From Candidatus Zhuqueibacterota bacterium (GTDB lineage Bacteria; KSB1; UBA2214), in assembly GCA_022706175.1 (NCBI GenBank), contig JAKJDB010000007.1:1-17959 (forward strand): a stretch of 17,959 nt of DNA. Direction: 5' to 3'. Positions 5,591 through 15,650 of this stretch are shown one piece after another. Positions within the stretch are counted from its first letter, which is position 1; each line of letters begins with the position of its first letter. Under the pieces are notes generated by a model, which ran no database searches, was not told where the DNA came from, and was given only the letters and a program-made list of their open reading frames with translations. Position numbers and translations under genes: made by a program.

Positions 5591-5599
5591 ATTATAACA
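5591..5599 (-). promoter_or_regulatory. Candidate extended -10 promoter for the lipoprotein/propeller/PorV group
   Basis: On the minus strand the string TGTTATAAT matches the full extended -10 consensus TGnTATAAT. It overlaps the stop codon of the HAD gene and lies about 35 bases upstream of the preferred lipoprotein ATG. No good -35 hexamer sits at 16-18 bases, which extended -10 promoters can tolerate. If real it would let the surface-protein genes be transcribed separately from the tryptophanase/HAD genes. Confidence 0.4.
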
Positions 5600-6239
5600 C
5601 CATTGTTTCCAAATACTTTAATAATTCAGCGTGCGATTCTAGTATAACGTCGGCCTGAAGCAAATGTTCCCTAGCCAGGGTGGTGGTCAGAGCGATGCAA
5701 AACATGCCGGCGCTCTTGGCCGCTTCGATGCCAAAGGGCGCGTTTTCCACAACCACACAAAATTCCGGCGCTACGCCCAGGCGGTCAGCGGCCACCAGAA
5801 ACGGATCCGGCCAGGGCTTGCCGCGGGTGTAATCCCCCTGCTTGATCACGACCTGAAAACGCTGCAGCAAGGCCGAATCGATCACATGCTGGACGTTCGC
5901 CAGGGTAGTGCCCGTGGCGACAGCACGTACCAGGTGATGGCGGTCGCACAGGTCCAGAATGGACGCGATTTCAGGATAGGGTTTGCTGTCGCAGATCTGT
6001 AAAAAGATCTCGTTCCTTTCCGCCATATACTGCTTGGCGGTCTCATCATCCAACTCGACGCCGTGGCGGCGCGCCATGGCCTGAACGATGCGAAAAGCCG
6101 GAGAGCCCTCATGCAGGCGCATCACCTGCTCATCGGCGACCAGGCCGCGTGGCTGCAGCACGCGCTGCCAGGCCTCGTAATGAAATGGAATCGTATACGC
6201 CAGAACTCCGTCGAAATCAAAAATAATCGCTTTGATCAA
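5592..6239 (-). CDS. HAD-superfamily phosphatase, beta-phosphoglucomutase-like subgroup
   Basis: A 215-residue cytoplasmic HAD hydrolase with an alpha-helical cap. Motif I is DFDGVLAYT (nucleophile Asp8, acid/base Asp10), motif II is ATGTT (around residues 108-112), motif III is Lys141 in GKPWPDP, and motif IV is VVVENAPFGIEAAKSAGM with Glu165 and Asn166. The Asn in place of the second acidic residue is tolerated in this subgroup. The length fits single-domain phosphatases and beta-phosphoglucomutases; the substrate cannot be read from sequence. The start is a TTG whose first bases overlap the stop of the tryptophanase gene (TTGA), with a strong GGAGG site seven bases upstream inside that gene, so translation is probably coupled. 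The pairing suggests a role with tryptophanase, perhaps on a phosphorylated cofactor or metabolite; this is a guess. Confidence 0.88.
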   Translation of the reverse strand: MIKAIIFDFDGVLAYTIPFHYEAWQRVLQPRGLVADEQVMRLHEGSPAFRIVQAMARRHGVELDDETAKQYMAERNEIFLQICDSKPYPEIASILDLCDRHHLVRAVATGTTLANVQHVIDSALLQRFQVVIKQGDYTRGKPWPDPFLVAADRLGVAPEFCVVVENAPFGIEAAKSAGMFCIALTTTLAREHLLQADVILESHAELLKYLETMVL

Positions 6240-7609
6240 TCCACTTCCTCCAGCCGGGCGGTAAAATGGCGCAAGAGCGGCGCCTGATGAACGATGCGCA
6301 ATCCTTTGATGGCCTCGTGGTTTCTATATAGTTCGATGATCGATTCGGCGACATACTGCATATGCATGGACGTGTAGACTCGGCGGGGGATGGCCAGCCG
6401 GACCAGTTCGAGATCGGGAAAGTTTTCCCGGCCCGACTGCGGATCCCTTGCGCCGAACATGAGGCCGCCGATCTCGGTCGCGCGAATGCCGGCCTCCCGG
6501 TACAGGGCGCAGGTGAGCGCCTGTCCCGGAAACTGTTCGCGCGGCAAATGGGGCAAAAACTTTTTCGCGTTTAGAAACACCGCGTGTCCGCCGAAGGGTT
6601 TCACCATCGGGATGCCGGCCTGATCGAGCAGGTCGCCCAGATAGTGAACCTGGCCGACCCGATGGGCCAGATACTCTTCGTCCACTCCTTCTTGCAGACC
6701 GCGGGCGATGGCCTCGAGATCGCGGCCGGCCAAACCGCCGTAGGTCGGAAAACCTTCCAGCAGTATGAGCAGATTGGCGCACTGTTCCGCCCAGGCATCG
6801 TTGTTCAGGGCGAGAAATCCGCCGATGTTGACCAGTCCGTCCTTCTTGGCGCTCATGGTGCAGCCGTCGGCCAGACTGAACAGTTCGCGGCTGATCTCTT
6901 GAACGGCGCGGCCGCTGTAGCCGGGTTCCCGCTGTTGAATGAAATAACAATTCTCCGCGAACCGGCAGGCATCGATGAAAAAAGGCCGTTGATATTTTTT
7001 GGCGATGGCGCTGACGCAGCGGATGTTCTCCATGGAGACCGGTTGGCCGCCGACGCTGTTGTTGGTGATGGTCATCATGATCAACGGGACGTTAGCGCCC
7101 TTTTGTTGCAGCAACCGTTCCAATTTCTCCGTATCCATGTTCCCCTTGAACGGGTGCTCCCGCTCAGGATCATGCGCCGCCTCGATGACCAGATCCATCG
7201 GCACACCCTGACGGTGCAGCACGTTGGCGCGTGTGGTGTCAAAATGCGTGTTGTTGGGCACCACATCGCCCGGCCGTACAGCCACGGAGAACAGCAGATG
7301 CTCAGCCGAACGCCCCTGATGCGTAGGAAGGACGTTTTTAAAGCCGAAGATCGATCGAACCGATTCGGCAAAATGGTAATAATTTTTGCTGCCGGCGTAG
7401 GACTCGTCGCCCAGCATGATCCCGGCCCATTGGTTATCGCTCATGGCCGAGGTGCCGCTGTCGGTGAGCAAATCCACATAGATGCTTTCGGCGGGCAGAC
7501 GAAAAACATTAAAGCCGGCTTCCCGGATCAACCGGTCGCGCTGCGCACGCGTGGTTTTCCGGACAGGCTCGACGACCTTGATGCGAAAAGGTTCTGCGGG
7601 AAAGCGCAT
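6236..7609 (-). CDS. tnaA: Tryptophanase (tryptophan indole-lyase), PLP-dependent
   Basis: A 457-residue PLP enzyme converting L-tryptophan to indole, pyruvate and ammonia. It aligns along its whole length with the tyrosine phenol-lyase/tryptophanase family: LLTDSGTSAMSD, Tyr71 in GDESYAGS, THQGR at 96-100, PLP-binding Asp213 and Arg216 in FIDACRF, the Schiff-base lysine Lys256 in MSAKKDG, and the carboxylate-binding Arg404. Three positions separate the two activities. Asp124 (HFDTT; Thr in tyrosine phenol-lyase), Ile380 (RATEIG; Arg in tyrosine phenol-lyase) and His448 (LLRHFTARL; Phe in tyrosine phenol-lyase) all match tryptophanase. The ATG at 7609 has a GAGG site four bases upstream. No tnaC-like leader peptide is visible in the 91 bases upstream and no tryptophan permease is nearby, so regulation differs from enteric bacteria. 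It overlaps the HAD gene by four bases. Confidence 0.93.
   Translation of the reverse strand: MRFPAEPFRIKVVEPVRKTTRAQRDRLIREAGFNVFRLPAESIYVDLLTDSGTSAMSDNQWAGIMLGDESYAGSKNYYHFAESVRSIFGFKNVLPTHQGRSAEHLLFSVAVRPGDVVPNNTHFDTTRANVLHRQGVPMDLVIEAAHDPEREHPFKGNMDTEKLERLLQQKGANVPLIMMTITNNSVGGQPVSMENIRCVSAIAKKYQRPFFIDACRFAENCYFIQQREPGYSGRAVQEISRELFSLADGCTMSAKKDGLVNIGGFLALNNDAWAEQCANLLILLEGFPTYGGLAGRDLEAIARGLQEGVDEEYLAHRVGQVHYLGDLLDQAGIPMVKPFGGHAVFLNAKKFLPHLPREQFPGQALTCALYREAGIRATEIGGLMFGARDPQSGRENFPDLELVRLAIPRRVYTSMHMQYVAESIIELYRNHEAIKGLRIVHQAPLLRHFTARLEEVD
6247..6251 (-). promoter_or_regulatory. Ribosome binding site deciding the TTG start of the HAD gene
   Basis: A perfect GGAGG on the minus strand lies seven bases upstream of TTG at 6239 and inside the last codons of tnaA. 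It supports this non-ATG start and translational coupling. Confidence 0.75.
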
Positions 7610-7700: not shown

Positions 7701-8237
7701 CTATTTCAACGGCTCAAAATTCATAAAATCGGCGTGATGGACGATGATGCTTTCCGGAGTGCGATAGCCGCTGTCGCCCTCTTTGGCGTGCGTAGCGATG
7801 ATATGGACCACGGCGTCGGGCAGCTCGTGGCCGGCCGCCAGAGCGGCGCCGCTGAAGGGATGACGCAACAGCCGGCCGTTTTCGCTCTTGACGAAGCGGC
7901 CGTCCGCCACCTGGTATTCCAGTAACTTGCCGATATCGTGCAGCAGGCCGCCGCTCACCACCCAATCCAGATTCAGCACCGGGCCGCGCGGGTACTGCTC
8001 ATTAAAGATTTTTGCCGCCGCTGCGGCCATCTGCGTCACACTGCGGACATGAGTGCGGAACGAGACCGGACAATCGCTGATGAGCAGGGTGAACGGCAGC
8101 CGATCGAGATCTTCCAGACTCCAGCCGCCCCGGTTCATGGCGTCCAGCCAGCAGTGGACCGTCTTTTGCCGCAGCCCCTGCTCCTGAATCCAGTCGAATT
8201 CAGGGATCAGGGAACGCAATTTTTTCTCCTGCATCAT
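7701..8237 (-). CDS. HD-domain metal-dependent phosphohydrolase-like protein
   Basis: A small cytoplasmic protein of 178 residues with an HD domain. The metal-ligand series is complete: His63 (SFRTHVRSV), the His100-Asp101 pair (LLHDIGK), His126 (RHPFSG), His150 (ATHAKEG) and Asp170 (VHHADF). The extra histidines between the HD pair and the last Asp are typical of HD proteins that hold two metals, such as YqeK-type nucleotide hydrolases, so activity is likely. The substrate is unknown. A GTG at 8249 would overlap the stop of the PdxJ-like gene by four bases, but a GAGG site six bases upstream of ATG 8237 favours the ATG. Its tight link to a PdxJ-like gene and its place before tryptophanase suggest a shared pathway. 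Confidence 0.8.
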   Translation of the reverse strand: MMQEKKLRSLIPEFDWIQEQGLRQKTVHCWLDAMNRGGWSLEDLDRLPFTLLISDCPVSFRTHVRSVTQMAAAAAKIFNEQYPRGPVLNLDWVVSGGLLHDIGKLLEYQVADGRFVKSENGRLLRHPFSGAALAAGHELPDAVVHIIATHAKEGDSGYRTPESIIVHHADFMNFEPLK

Positions 8238-8243
8238 GCAGAA

Positions 8244-8247
8244 CCTC
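8244..8247 (-). promoter_or_regulatory. Ribosome binding site for the HD-domain gene
   Basis: GAGG on the minus strand overlaps the stop codon of the PdxJ-like gene and lies six bases upstream of ATG 8237. It supports that start over the GTG at 8249, and it ties translation of the two genes together. Confidence 0.55.
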
Positions 8248-8956
8248 ACTTGCCGATCAACTGCGATTTAAAATGGATGACCGCGCGGTCAATGCCGACC
8301 AACAGGCTGCGGCTGATGATCGCCCGGCCGACGTTGCACTCTTCGATGATGTCGATGCTGCCGATTTCGCGGATGTTTTGATAGGACAGCCCGCGTCCGG
8401 CCGAGACGCCCATGCCGAGTTTGTGCGCCGCCAGCGCCACGGAGCGGATGCGCTCTACCTGTTCGGTCATGGTGCCCAGATCCTCGACCAGCGAAAAGGG
8501 AAACGTGTTGATCTGCACATAATCCATACCGGCGCGCGCCGCGGCCCGCACCTGGTTGTTCTCCGGCGCGATCAACGCGTTGACGACGATATTGTTGGCG
8601 CGCAACGTGGCGGCCACCTCCTCGATGTATTCGAGGTTGGCGTCCACATCCAAGGACGCGGACTCATCCTCCACCGCCGGCAGCAGCGTGACCATGTCGG
8701 GCAGCGTGCGGATGGCCTTTTTCACCATCTCGTCTTCCAGCGGGATAGCCAGGTTGAGATGGGTTTTCACGACCTCCTTGAGCACATGCAGATCGCGGTC
8801 GCTGATATCCGAACGATTGGGCGCCCAACACACCACAATGCCGTCGATGCCGGCGATCTCTGCGGCCATGGCCACATTGACCGGGTCCGGCTCCCGTTTT
8901 CTATTGAGCTGGCGCAGTTGCGCCACCTGATTGATGCACAAACATAATCTGGCCAT
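8246..8956 (-). CDS. PdxJ-like TIM-barrel protein lacking the catalytic residues of pyridoxine 5'-phosphate synthase
   Basis: A 236-residue homologue of PdxJ, the enzyme that closes the pyridoxine ring from 1-deoxyxylulose 5-phosphate and aminoacetone phosphate. Homology is clear: AGIDGIVVCWAPNRSDISDRD aligns with the E. coli AGADGITV...ITDRD segment, SAGRGLSYQNI with NAGHGLTYHNV, and NVGRAIISRS with NIGHAIIGRA. The working residues differ. Against E. coli numbering His45 is Cys43, Arg47 is Ala45, His52 is Asp50, Glu72 is Ala70, Glu153 is Gln148, His193 is Arg188 and His216 is Arg211. The N-terminal NIDHIATLR has lost two residues including Asp11-His12. These comparisons use the E. coli sequence from memory. 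Ring-closure activity is therefore unlikely, and a changed ligand or a regulatory role is more probable. The start is firm: AGGAGAGG lies upstream of ATG 8956. It overlaps or abuts the HD-domain gene. Confidence 0.85.
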   Translation of the reverse strand: MARLCLCINQVAQLRQLNRKREPDPVNVAMAAEIAGIDGIVVCWAPNRSDISDRDLHVLKEVVKTHLNLAIPLEDEMVKKAIRTLPDMVTLLPAVEDESASLDVDANLEYIEEVAATLRANNIVVNALIAPENNQVRAAARAGMDYVQINTFPFSLVEDLGTMTEQVERIRSVALAAHKLGMGVSAGRGLSYQNIREIGSIDIIEECNVGRAIISRSLLVGIDRAVIHFKSQLIGK

Positions 8957-9047
8957 ACCGCTTCCTCTCCTGATTGAAAGCCCCAGACGCCGGATTCAGC
9001 GTTTACCGCCGGCGCCGTTTCCGCTGAGCGGCTGCTCGCCGCCCTCC

Positions 9048-10224: not shown

Positions 10225-10827
10225 TCAGTTGCCGAACGCCGCCCGCACCGCACTCCAGGTCGGTTGACTGGCGGTGGCGTAATCGGTCCAGCGATGGATG
10301 TACCACATGTTTTCAATAGAACGAATCAGGCGAAACTCGATCTGCCCGCGGGTTTTCACCAGACCCACAGTCGCCTGACGTTGATGCCGCAGGGTGAGCT
10401 CATACTCTTGCAGCAGAATCACCGAATCCTGATACACACTCTCGCGCAAAGAGGTCAACATCAATTGACTGGTGGAATCTTTCGGCAGATAGAGCAGCAG
10501 TTGATTCAAATAGATGCGCTCTTGCTCATATCCCCAGTTTCTGAAAACGCCGGGATTCGCGGCGTTGACCGACTGTTCCGGAATAAAGAGGAACCGGCGG
10601 CCGGCCTTGCCGGTATCCGCCAGACAACGCAGATAGTTCTGCGCGTTTTTCTCCGCGATCGCATTGCGCAGGTTGACCATCACGTAACTGGACGACGTGG
10701 GTTGGATCCAGCTGGATTGCTGGTTGATCGGCGGCTCCGGATCACGGGTGGCGAACGGCGATCGGCAGGCCAGCGCCGGCAGCATCACCCACCCCAACCA
10801 CCCGAGTCCTTTTGCACAACAGGTCAC
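10225..10827 (-). CDS. Conserved hypothetical protein, probable lipoprotein
   Basis: A 200-residue protein I do not recognise by name. The N-terminus has a hydrophobic stretch (LGWLGWVMLPALAC) ending at Cys21 with an imperfect lipobox, so it is probably exported and lipid-anchored. The mature part holds WIQPTSSSYVMVNLRNAI (about 40-57), an alpha/beta pattern, and a C-terminal MWYIHRWTDY followed by TWSAVRAAFG. The ending of Trp-x-x-x-Trp-x-Asp and a final short helix recalls NTF2-like accessory lipoproteins, but this is only an impression. The start is a GTG at 10827 with a clear GGAAGGA site five to six bases upstream. It sits between the DUF4921 gene and the membrane-anchored deacetylase, so an envelope role is likely. 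Confidence 0.65.
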   Translation of the reverse strand: MTCCAKGLGWLGWVMLPALACRSPFATRDPEPPINQQSSWIQPTSSSYVMVNLRNAIAEKNAQNYLRCLADTGKAGRRFLFIPEQSVNAANPGVFRNWGYEQERIYLNQLLLYLPKDSTSQLMLTSLRESVYQDSVILLQEYELTLRHQRQATVGLVKTRGQIEFRLIRSIENMWYIHRWTDYATASQPTWSAVRAAFGN

Positions 10828-12205: not shown

Positions 12206-13867
12206 TCACTGGGTGATGAACTGCTGGACAAAGTAACGGGCGCTGAGCGGCTCACCGGTGGCCCTGGCGATCATCTCATCCCAACGATAGCGGCTCGCCG
12301 GCATAAAGACCCGGTTCCTCAGCGTATCGCCGAGCGCCGCGCAGCCGACGGCACTCCACGCACCGCCCGCAGGCGTCGGCAGCGTCTTCTTCACATATTC
12401 GGTGAGTTGAGAGGCAAACAGCTCGCCCAACAAATAGTTGTGATAATAGCACGGCGCAATGGTAAAGTGGATCTTGGCCGCCCAATCCGGCTCGTGACGG
12501 TCCTTCGGCGAATGAATCATCTGATATTTTTCCACCAGCTGCCACCACAACCGATTCAGATCCTGATCCGGATTGGCGTACAGTTCTTTTTCAAAGTAAT
12601 ACATCACCATGGCCCAACGGGCAAAGATCAACTGCTTGGCGGCCATGGAGGAGGCGGAGGGCGTCTTGATCTTTTCATATTCAGCCGGAGGCAGATTCAG
12701 CATGTCCCGCATCCACTCGGCCTGACGGCTGAAACGGCCGAAAAACATGGCGATCGCCTCTGTGGTGAACGCGTGGGCGGGCTGGCGCAGCAGATAGGGC
12801 AGCGATGGATCGTGACAGCGATCATAGGTCGCATGCCCCAATTCATGCAACAGGGTCTCCATCCAACGCTCGTTGTTCTGCAGATTGCACAGAATGCGCA
12901 CATCGCCGCAGCGGTCGATGTCCGTGCTGAAGGCGTGCGGATTTTTGCCGTCGCGTTCGTAGAGATCGCTGTTGGCCAGGATGGCTGTCACATCCAGACC
13001 GATGCCGCTGTAAAATCGGCTCGCCAGCTGTTTCACATCCTTGCCCGCATAATAGCGGTCCGGATCGAACGCGACATCGGACGGGGCTTCTTGAAAAAAT
13101 GGATCCTGATAATGCCACGGCGCCAGGCCGGATGCAGTGACATGAAATTTTTTGCTCAGCTCTTCATCCATTTGGCGGCGCAGCTCGGTGAAAGGTGCCT
13201 GGCTCAGCGCGAACAGTTCGGTGAACACGCGGTCCACCTCCTCCTGGCTCTGCTCCGCCAAGTGCAGCGACAGGGCGTGATAATCCTTGAAGCCCAGGCT
13301 GTGGGCCGCCTGATTGCGCAGGCGAACCAGTGCGATCAGATCCGACGCAACCCGGCCGCCCACCTGCTTGCTTGCCTCCCAGGCCAACCGACGCTTGCCG
13401 GCATCGGTTTCGTTCTTGAATATCTCATCGATCCGGCCGGCGCTCACCGCCACACCGTCGATCCGGCCGCGAAAGGTGCTGAAGGTCTGCTCCACTTTTG
13501 CCGCCAGCTCGACCATTTGCTTCAGCAGCTTAGGATCGATCTGATTTTCCATATAGGCGTTGACCAACAGCTGCAGCTGTCGGGCCAGCAGCGGATCAGT
13601 GATGCCGCCGGTCTTTTGCCACCGGGTCAAAACCTCAAAGGTTTTGCGGTCGCTGTAGATCTGCCTGAGCTGCAGATTCAACGCCGCATAACGGCTGTAG
13701 GCGGATGAATCGCCGGTGCAGGCCGCCTGCCAGTAAGCCAGGTTGGCCTCCGTTTGCAGCGGTTGAACCTGCGCTACATGCGCATCGATAAACTGTCTCA
13801 AGGCGTTCTCTCCCGAATGCGCACAGGACAGAGCCAGCACGCAAACCATCCCCAAAAACCTTTTCAT
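12206..13867 (-). CDS. Secreted M2-like (ACE-type) zinc metallopeptidase
   Basis: A 553-residue exported peptidase. The signal segment MKRFLGMVCVLALSC ends at Cys15 with an imperfect lipobox, so it may be a lipoprotein. The mostly helical body is typical of M2/M3 gluzincins. The zinc site is HELGH (His341, Glu342, His345) with the third ligand Glu370 in FTTEAIAMFFG, as in the HExxH...HEAIGD pattern of angiotensin-converting-enzyme relatives. Length and order fit bacterial M2 peptidases, which trim dipeptides from C-termini. An open frame extends to 13930, but ATG 13867 gives the signal peptide and has GGAG seven bases upstream. It is the first gene of the long minus-strand block, so transcription of that block probably starts in the adjacent divergent region. 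Confidence 0.85.
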   Translation of the reverse strand: MKRFLGMVCVLALSCAHSGENALRQFIDAHVAQVQPLQTEANLAYWQAACTGDSSAYSRYAALNLQLRQIYSDRKTFEVLTRWQKTGGITDPLLARQLQLLVNAYMENQIDPKLLKQMVELAAKVEQTFSTFRGRIDGVAVSAGRIDEIFKNETDAGKRRLAWEASKQVGGRVASDLIALVRLRNQAAHSLGFKDYHALSLHLAEQSQEEVDRVFTELFALSQAPFTELRRQMDEELSKKFHVTASGLAPWHYQDPFFQEAPSDVAFDPDRYYAGKDVKQLASRFYSGIGLDVTAILANSDLYERDGKNPHAFSTDIDRCGDVRILCNLQNNERWMETLLHELGHATYDRCHDPSLPYLLRQPAHAFTTEAIAMFFGRFSRQAEWMRDMLNLPPAEYEKIKTPSASSMAAKQLIFARWAMVMYYFEKELYANPDQDLNRLWWQLVEKYQMIHSPKDRHEPDWAAKIHFTIAPCYYHNYLLGELFASQLTEYVKKTLPTPAGGAWSAVGCAALGDTLRNRVFMPASRYRWDEMIARATGEPLSARYFVQQFITQ

Positions 13868-13938
13868 AACAGCACTCCGGAATAGTCTAAAATATAGTTT
13901 ACTAAAAATGGCGACGATTTCCAAGGACATTTTCTTGC

Positions 13939-15217: not shown

Positions 15218-15287
15218 AATGTATTGCACTTTTAAGAAAAATGTATTAGTTTACTCAATAAAAAACAGTCGTCATTTACAGAGGAAC

Positions 15288-15650
15288 ATGAAAAAGGGCA
15301 ACCGGGAAATTGTCGTTATCGGTGATCGCGTCTTGATCGTACCGGACCTGGGTGAAGAGCGCAGCAATGTGGGCCTCTATTTGCCCAAATGGGCGCTGGA
15401 AAAAGAATCGATCCAGGCCGGCACTATTGTCGAAATCGGGCCGGGCGTTCCCATGGCACCGCCCGCGGATATCGACGAAGAGTCCTGGCGGCCGAAAAAT
15501 ACACCCTCGCAACCTGCCGCTCAGCAGGCCAAGGTGGGTGATTATGCGGTGTTTTTACGCAAAGCCGCTGTAGAGGTCAAACTGGACGGCGATACCTTTT
15601 TAATCGTGCCTCAGGCGGCTTTGCTGGTGCTGATACGGGAACGGTCCTGA
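15288..15650 (+). CDS. GroES-like co-chaperone, extended variant without adjacent groEL
   Basis: A 120-residue homologue of the 10-kDa chaperonin. The fold marks are IGDRVLIVPD (11-20), SNVGLYLPKWALEKE in the roof/mobile-loop region, GTIVEIGPG (45-53), KVGDYAVF (82-89) and the closing VEVKLDGDTFLIVPQAALLVLIRE. Canonical GroES has about 95 residues; the extra length lies between GPG and KVGD (about 54-81), rich in Pro, Asp, Glu and Gln. The loop reads NVGLYLP rather than the usual GGI(V)LP. Similar extended forms annotated as GroES family occur in Bacteroidota, from memory. No groEL follows. An open frame extends to 15219, but AGAGGA just before ATG 15288 and homology set the start there. Whether it caps GroEL or does something else is open. 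Confidence 0.82.
   Translation: MKKGNREIVVIGDRVLIVPDLGEERSNVGLYLPKWALEKESIQAGTIVEIGPGVPMAPPADIDEESWRPKNTPSQPAAQQAKVGDYAVFLRKAAVEVKLDGDTFLIVPQAALLVLIRERS

Follow-up and report, generated by a model that had tools for sequence, protein, structure and literature searches.

The pdxJ homolog at positions 8246..8956 (minus strand) of the window, by which we mean the whole stretch of 17,959 nucleotides analyzed here, has lost the active site of pyridoxine 5'-phosphate (PNP) synthase at the very locus where sister genomes carry their normal pdxJ. Across the phylum this conversion is associated with PdxS, a point that is central here and reaches beyond the preliminary description of the gene. We consider it probable that PdxJ was retired when PdxST took over and that it persists because of a function separate from PNP synthesis, most likely a non-catalytic one.

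Results

An intact PdxJ fold with a replaced active site

The gene encodes a protein of 236 amino acids starting from ATG, with a Shine-Dalgarno-like AGGAGAGG (8964..8971, minus strand) that can be read in the sequence 7 nt 5' of the start codon. A Pfam profile search assigns PF03740 to residues 4-231 (E=1.1e-55; 188.8 bits against a gathering score of 24.5). The protein also matches six NCBIfam PdxJ equivalog models, but in every case below the cut-off (151.4 bits against 192.75 for TIGR00559 and 187.4 against 190 for NF003625, with the other four further below). Eight solved sequences match the protein, each of them named as a PdxJ enzyme, and identity to the nearest solved PdxJ is 32-34% in structural alignment. 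The AF2 model (mean pLDDT 93.3) shows the (beta/alpha)8 fold of PdxJ: its top 16 matches in the PDB are PdxJ without exception, with query TM-scores of 0.85-0.96 (0.95 to both 3gk0 and 1ho1). PdxJ homology and a preserved barrel, both proposed from the letters of the DNA, are thus borne out. The barrel is also kept in the AlphaFold model of a strongly altered protein from subclade B (mean pLDDT 90.5, loop 98-108 poorly predicted), for which the 16 top PDB matches are likewise all PdxJ.

Residues are numbered according to E. coli PdxJ (K-12 record), to which the window protein was aligned. His45, Glu72 and His193, which we take to be the catalytic residues of PdxJ, are Cys, Ala and Arg in the window protein, and the residues that presumably bind its ligands (Asn9, Asp11, His12, Arg20, Arg47, His52, Thr102 and His216) are all changed. 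The substitutions H45C, R47A, H52D, E72A, E153Q, H193R and H216R are each as previously noted. The supposed deletion of Asp11-His12 turns out to be a pair of substitutions (D11N, H12Q), since the alignment, ungapped here, pairs the segment with Asn9-Gln10 of the window protein. Further changes, absent from the earlier list, are N9C, R20N, R51S, H155N and, in the loop closing over the active site, the loss of Thr102 along with a gap of three residues. In PdxJ this loop opens and closes, and non-conserved residues approximately 6 Å from the intermediate have been catalogued (PMC10471632).

Conservation of the remodelled pocket

In a search of 5.8 billion proteins we obtained 223 relatives, of which the best 120, at least 50% identical over the aligned part, were analyzed. 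Organism names, which few of these 120 bear, are candidate division KSB1, Zhuqueibacterota, Calditrichaeota or only "bacterium". Those carrying a protein name are all called pyridoxine 5'-phosphate synthase, the misnaming that the preliminary description had foretold. Defined by Cys at position 9, the clade of the window protein comprises 101 of 121 proteins (the query and the 120 listed relatives), and most of the substitutions are shared by orthologs.

Among the 101 listed clade members, the codons of Cys7, Asn9 and Gln10 (E. coli N9, D11 and H12; 8927..8938, minus strand, as are all codons given here) form a new strand-1 signature, C-x-N-Q, with Cys in 101, Asn in 93 and Gln in 86 members. 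Within the segment from Cys43 to Asp50 (E. coli H45-H52; 8807..8830), which carries H45C, R47A, R51S and H52D, Asp at position 52 is found in 90. Ala70 in place of the catalytic Glu72 (8747..8749) recurs in 93, Gln148-x-Asn150 in place of E153 and H155 (8507..8515) in 91 and 93, respectively, and Arg188 in place of the catalytic His193 (8393..8395) in 89 of the 101. Other positions vary: position 45 is Gln in 51, His in 24 and Cys in 2 of the 101, with Arg in 69 and Ala in 2 at position 47, so that H45C and R47A are peculiar to the nearest relatives of the window protein. Position 216 (Arg211; 8324..8326) is Arg in just 40, Trp in 30 and Lys in 15 of the listed members. The proposal that two His-to-Arg changes reflect one new anionic ligand is therefore not supported, as Arg is kept at position 193 but not at 216.

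To assess conservation more quantitatively we compared the entropy of 11 pocket positions with that of the other alignment columns. In canonical PdxJ the pocket is far more conserved than those other columns (mean 0.08 bits vs 0.97), whereas in the window's clade it is about average (1.00 bits vs 1.16, with random draws as low in 26% of cases), which does not bear out a pocket conserved as a whole. In subclade B it is even more variable than the other columns (1.87 bits vs 1.42). The closing loop, residues 96-106, is hypervariable in the window's clade (3.03 bits vs 0.52 in canonical PdxJ). A second search, with a query from the most altered group, gave 461 relatives. Of the best 120 listed, 113 are non-canonical, and the commonest residues in these 113 are Asn9 (kept in 89), Glu11 (85), Pro45 (76), Pro52 (74), Gln72 (77), Glu153 (kept in 94) and His155 (kept in 86). 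The pocket residues of altered PdxJ differ from subclade to subclade. In subclade B, despite the drifting pocket and destroyed active site, the C-terminus AVRDM(V/A)xL(V/I)H is nearly invariant (for example in L079:7320-8033(+)), and this stretch is a possible candidate for an interaction surface.

These patterns bear on whether the pocket was remade for another reaction or substrate, with Cys9, Asn11, Gln12, Asp52, Gln153, Asn155 and Arg193 as working residues. TIM barrels change reactions easily, and the re-fixation of eight pocket positions in 85-100% of the listed clade members (from Cys9 in all 101 down to Gln12 in 86) fits a new enzyme as well as it fits a binding protein. Against this stand the pocket entropy of the clade, which is not clearly lower than that of other columns, the hypervariable closing loop and the lack of a constant new neighbor gene, pointing to a role, among the loci compared. 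The pocket of subclade B, which varies more than the other columns, argues against one conserved new reaction. We therefore regard a new enzyme as a serious but doubtful alternative. As subclade B combines a drifting pocket with a preserved fold and C-terminus, we favor a role resting on the protein itself and not on its chemistry. For the window's clade, the new residue set common to most members suggests that the protein may still bind a small molecule in its remodelled pocket.

Association with PdxS across the phylum

The genome with a locus 99% identical to the window (G004) encodes PdxS and an adjacent PdxT and has neither a PF10590 (PdxH) match nor a second PdxJ, a gene content that does not fit the DXP-dependent pathway and that answers the earlier question of a canonical pdxJ versus PdxS/PdxT. 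We extended the analysis to 82 genomes of its phylum. A PdxJ homolog is found in 76 of them, 38 divergent (138-245 bits) and 38 canonical (>250 bits) by score, three of the canonical-scoring genomes having partial matches in broken contigs. PdxS (PF01680) occurs in 37 of the 38 divergent genomes, in pieces only in G022 and G055, and in none of the 38 canonical ones. The sole exception is G050, a genome listed without a completeness estimate, in which a divergent PdxJ but no PdxS was found. Six genomes lack PdxJ, and one of these (G036) has PdxS. In the four genomes examined for it, pdxS adjoins pdxT and PdxS contains the lysine motifs AKCRIGH and TKGEAG. PdxH, whose oxidase activity PNP would require, occurs in 0/38 divergent and 21/38 canonical genomes; its absence alone proves little, because it is missing from 17 of the 38 canonical genomes as well. 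PdxA proved uninformative as a marker, with matches of E<1e-20 in 17/38 divergent genomes and three weak matches besides.

The residues were tabulated for all 38 divergent genomes and for 30 of the 38 canonical. None of the 38 divergent genomes retains His52, Glu72 or His193; His12 is lost in 37 and His45 in 33, while Arg47 is kept in 26, Glu153 in 13 and His45 in 5. The 30 canonical genomes keep all 13 positions, with the exception of Glu72 in one. The losses of His52, Glu72 and His193 from every divergent genome exceed chance, given that His52 and His193 are present in all 30 of these canonical genomes and Glu72 in 29. Each divergent genome has one PF03740 match and no second, canonical PdxJ. 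In G063, a canonical PdxJ at L034:1495-2211(+) has Lys at the position of Glu72, and that genome carries a second PdxJ copy as well (G063:C193).

Since altered PdxJ co-occurs with PdxS, it could also be a regulator or carrier of vitamin B6, its barrel still binding PLP or PNP and tuning PdxST in the manner of plant PDX1.2. A gene for a PLP-dependent lyase two genes downstream in the window would fit such a role. PDX1.2 is a paralog of PdxS/PDX1, not of PdxJ, and stands beside active copies, whereas the window gene is a single-copy PdxJ ortholog. The two are alike in being homologs of vitamin B6 synthases, and PDX1.2, reported to be a non-catalytic pseudoenzyme that regulates vitamin B6 biosynthesis (PMC6829848), offers a precedent for such a regulator and, by analogy, the nearest precedent in spirit for the altered PdxJ. 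The variation of pocket residues between subclades speaks against such a function. YggS/PLPBP (TIGR00044) is present in 33/38 divergent and 36/38 canonical genomes, and so altered PdxJ is no simple stand-in for that protein; replacement of YggS/PLPBP was rejected on this ground. Overall, such a B6-linked function seems unlikely to us.

The altered gene occupies the locus of normal pdxJ

Gene order was compared between 39 divergent loci, including the window, and 20 canonical loci, over the stretches retrieved, some of which are ended by contig ends. Directly upstream of the window gene lies a divergent polysaccharide deacetylase (PF04748; 9048..10316, minus strand), preceded by a second conserved neighbor (10225..10827, minus strand), a probable lipoprotein judged by eye from its N-terminus and without a Pfam or NCBIfam match. 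The deacetylase gene is near pdxJ at 35/39 divergent and 18/20 canonical loci, mostly directly upstream on the same strand and preceded by the putative lipoprotein gene. As the altered pdxJ sits in the slot of its relatives' normal pdxJ, it is the orthologous pdxJ of the phylum converted in place and not a duplicate. The shared synteny together with the single PdxJ homolog per divergent genome led us to reject a paralog.

The downstream side is less constant. In the window, an HD/HDIG-domain gene (7701..8249, minus strand; PF01966, E=1.7e-11) overlaps the pdxJ stop by 4 nt and is followed by genes for a tryptophanase/tyrosine phenol-lyase-like PLP enzyme (6236..7609, minus strand; Pfam and NCBIfam matches) and a HAD-family hydrolase (5592..6239, minus strand; Pfam match). 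Asparaginase, assigned to PF06089 in the one copy tested, is encoded 3' of pdxJ at 13/20 canonical and 0/39 divergent loci. The HD gene follows directly at 17/39 divergent loci (13/23 in clade C, 3/3 in A, 1/2 in S and 0/11 in B) and is near but non-adjacent at 1/20 canonical loci. Orthologs keep this neighbor directly after pdxJ at fewer than half of the divergent loci, and the HD protein was rejected as an obligate partner. The deacetylase is unsupported as an obligate partner too: outside the phylum it adjoins altered pdxJ in G135, where asparaginase is the opposite neighbor, and in G136, as well as the normal pdxJ of G139, but no PF04748 gene was found in G134 and G155, both with altered PdxJ, and it occurs in 4/15 outside genomes that have PdxS without PdxJ.

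The deacetylase gene beside the altered pdxJ of G136 (G136:C99:1973-2620(-), L177) carries an internal TAG stop. Elsewhere in the window, 15219-15650(+) encodes a 143-amino-acid GroES-like protein with a long interruption between its two Cpn10 halves, and the neighboring genes that were scanned include no chaperonin of GroEL size. The gene at 12206-13930(-) encodes a metallopeptidase that is hard to classify, with matches to M2 (E 7e-23) and to M3 and M32 (~1e-13).

Selection and number of origins

Based on simple Nei-Gojobori counts, which are weak at high dS, dN/dS is 0.015-0.19 in the 9 of 13 divergent pairs with finite dS, the other 4 being saturated, and 0.025-0.078 in 5 of 8 canonical pairs. 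No internal stop was found in pdxJ of any of the 38 divergent genomes. The earlier claim that the gene is kept under selection agrees with both observations, and on the same grounds a pseudogene was rejected as the main reading.

A slowly decaying relic, held only by its operon position, would account for the faster change of the protein: the ratio of PdxJ differences to those of the adjoining deacetylase is 0.65 among divergent and 0.24 among canonical genomes, approximately 2.7 times higher, dN/dS tends to be higher (up to 0.19 in divergent vs up to 0.08 in canonical pairs), and much of the sequence has changed in subclade B, G135 and G155. Yet the dN/dS values still lie within the range given above, the reading frames are free of stops, the C-terminus of subclade B is near-invariant, and the gene is kept where its upstream neighbors sit elsewhere (L070, L074, L075), which together make a relic improbable. 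The idea that PNP is still made by an unusual active site could draw on the kept fold and on His45 in 5/38 and Arg47 in 26/38 divergent genomes, but with two catalytic residues out of three (Glu72 and His193) gone in 38/38, PdxS present in 37/38 and PdxH in 0/38, we give it almost no credence.

In the PdxJ tree of the phylum all 39 divergent rows are joined (support 97/94). When outside sequences are included, the divergent rows of the phylum do not form one clade, and in a thinned set with the longest branches removed they fall on one side of a branch with support 79. The deacetylase tree, in which deep nodes are weak, separates the divergent groups. The rpoC trees, covering 42 of 64 phylum rows, also place them apart, yet do not reject one clade (AU p 0.15). 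The gene may thus have converted a single time within the phylum, and the association with PdxS in 37/38 genomes therefore does not amount to 38 independent trials.

Altered PdxJ outside the phylum

The relatives search spanned 156 genomes. As the phylum search had yielded just 82, the other 74 must come from outside the phylum. PdxS is above the cut-off in 19 of these 74 (a sub-threshold PF01680 match in G148 was excluded), 15 without a PdxJ match and four with PdxJ, namely G134, G135, G136 and G155, in which PF03740 was confirmed. His12, His45, His52 and His193 are lost in all four of these PdxJ, the alignment of G135 (26% identical) being the least certain. Glu72 is lost in three, and G136 keeps both Glu72 and Arg20. 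The PdxJ of G136 is nearest to a canonical PdxJ (57% identity), and its grouping with divergent sequences is not rejected (AU p 0.396; 50 of 84 rows). Six PdxJ from outside genomes that lack PdxS are unchanged at 12 or all 13 of the tabulated positions (two have Asn at 155); outside PdxJ beyond those tabulated were classed by score only. As 15 of the 19 outside PdxS genomes as well as G036 are without PdxJ, the retained role is not universal.

Two other kinds of PdxJ were noticed. One type with Asn11-Lys12 keeps His45, Glu72 and His193 (L086:6965-7690(+), L087:6887-7642(+), L179:4731-5474(+) and L185:4696-5415(-), the last two from outside the phylum). It is an extra copy in G081, G028 and G142 and the sole PdxJ match in G143, and is for this reason probably an ordinary functional type. 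In addition, the 362-amino-acid protein P0221, on a contig of 1694 bases, joins a PdxJ domain to a phosphatidylserine decarboxylase domain (PF02666) and may be an artefact.

Discussion

The altered PdxJ has the fold of its family with the catalytic residues lost, is conserved in orthologs and is under purifying selection, as is characteristic of pseudoenzymes. We propose that in lineages that had acquired PdxS-PdxT the PNP supplied by PdxJ would no longer have been needed. Several ligand residues would then have been lost along with catalytic ones (Glu72 and His193 throughout the divergent genomes of the phylum, His45 in the majority), while the (beta/alpha)8 protein stayed in its old operon slot under purifying selection as a non-catalytic binding or scaffold protein. 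That the slot has been kept and selection persists points to a role independent of PNP synthesis. It is also possible, and we hold this tentatively, that in these bacteria PdxJ has all along done a second job that needs no catalysis, which is unmasked whenever PdxST takes over and the gene stays: the chemistry would be free to decay and the second job alone would hold the gene in its old operon. If so, the altered PdxJ of several deep lineages would be natural separation-of-function variants of a textbook biosynthetic enzyme.

A 2023 survey treats pdxJ as a signature gene of the DXP-dependent pathway and reports both PLP pathways as apparent in ten of 21,105 genomes, including Caldithrix abyssi and Fibrobacter succinogenes, noting that the DXP-dependent pathway might be incomplete and that other steps are missing (PMC9997740). 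The genomes described here resemble these cases in carrying pdxJ together with pdxST; the passages of the survey available to us are silent on a loss of the PdxJ active site, and among the literature matches listed, from a search outside of which most subscription journals lie, we found no description of an inactive PdxJ. Our findings bear on the use of pdxJ as a signature gene and on the PNP synthase name that relatives of the altered protein, where named, carry in public records. For the lineages studied, this label is in all likelihood mistaken, PdxST being the route that the organisms use. A biosynthetic enzyme whose active site disappears at the original locus, alongside a replacement pathway, and which deep lineages nonetheless retain as a full protein amounts to a natural experiment that probes PdxJ for a hidden function.
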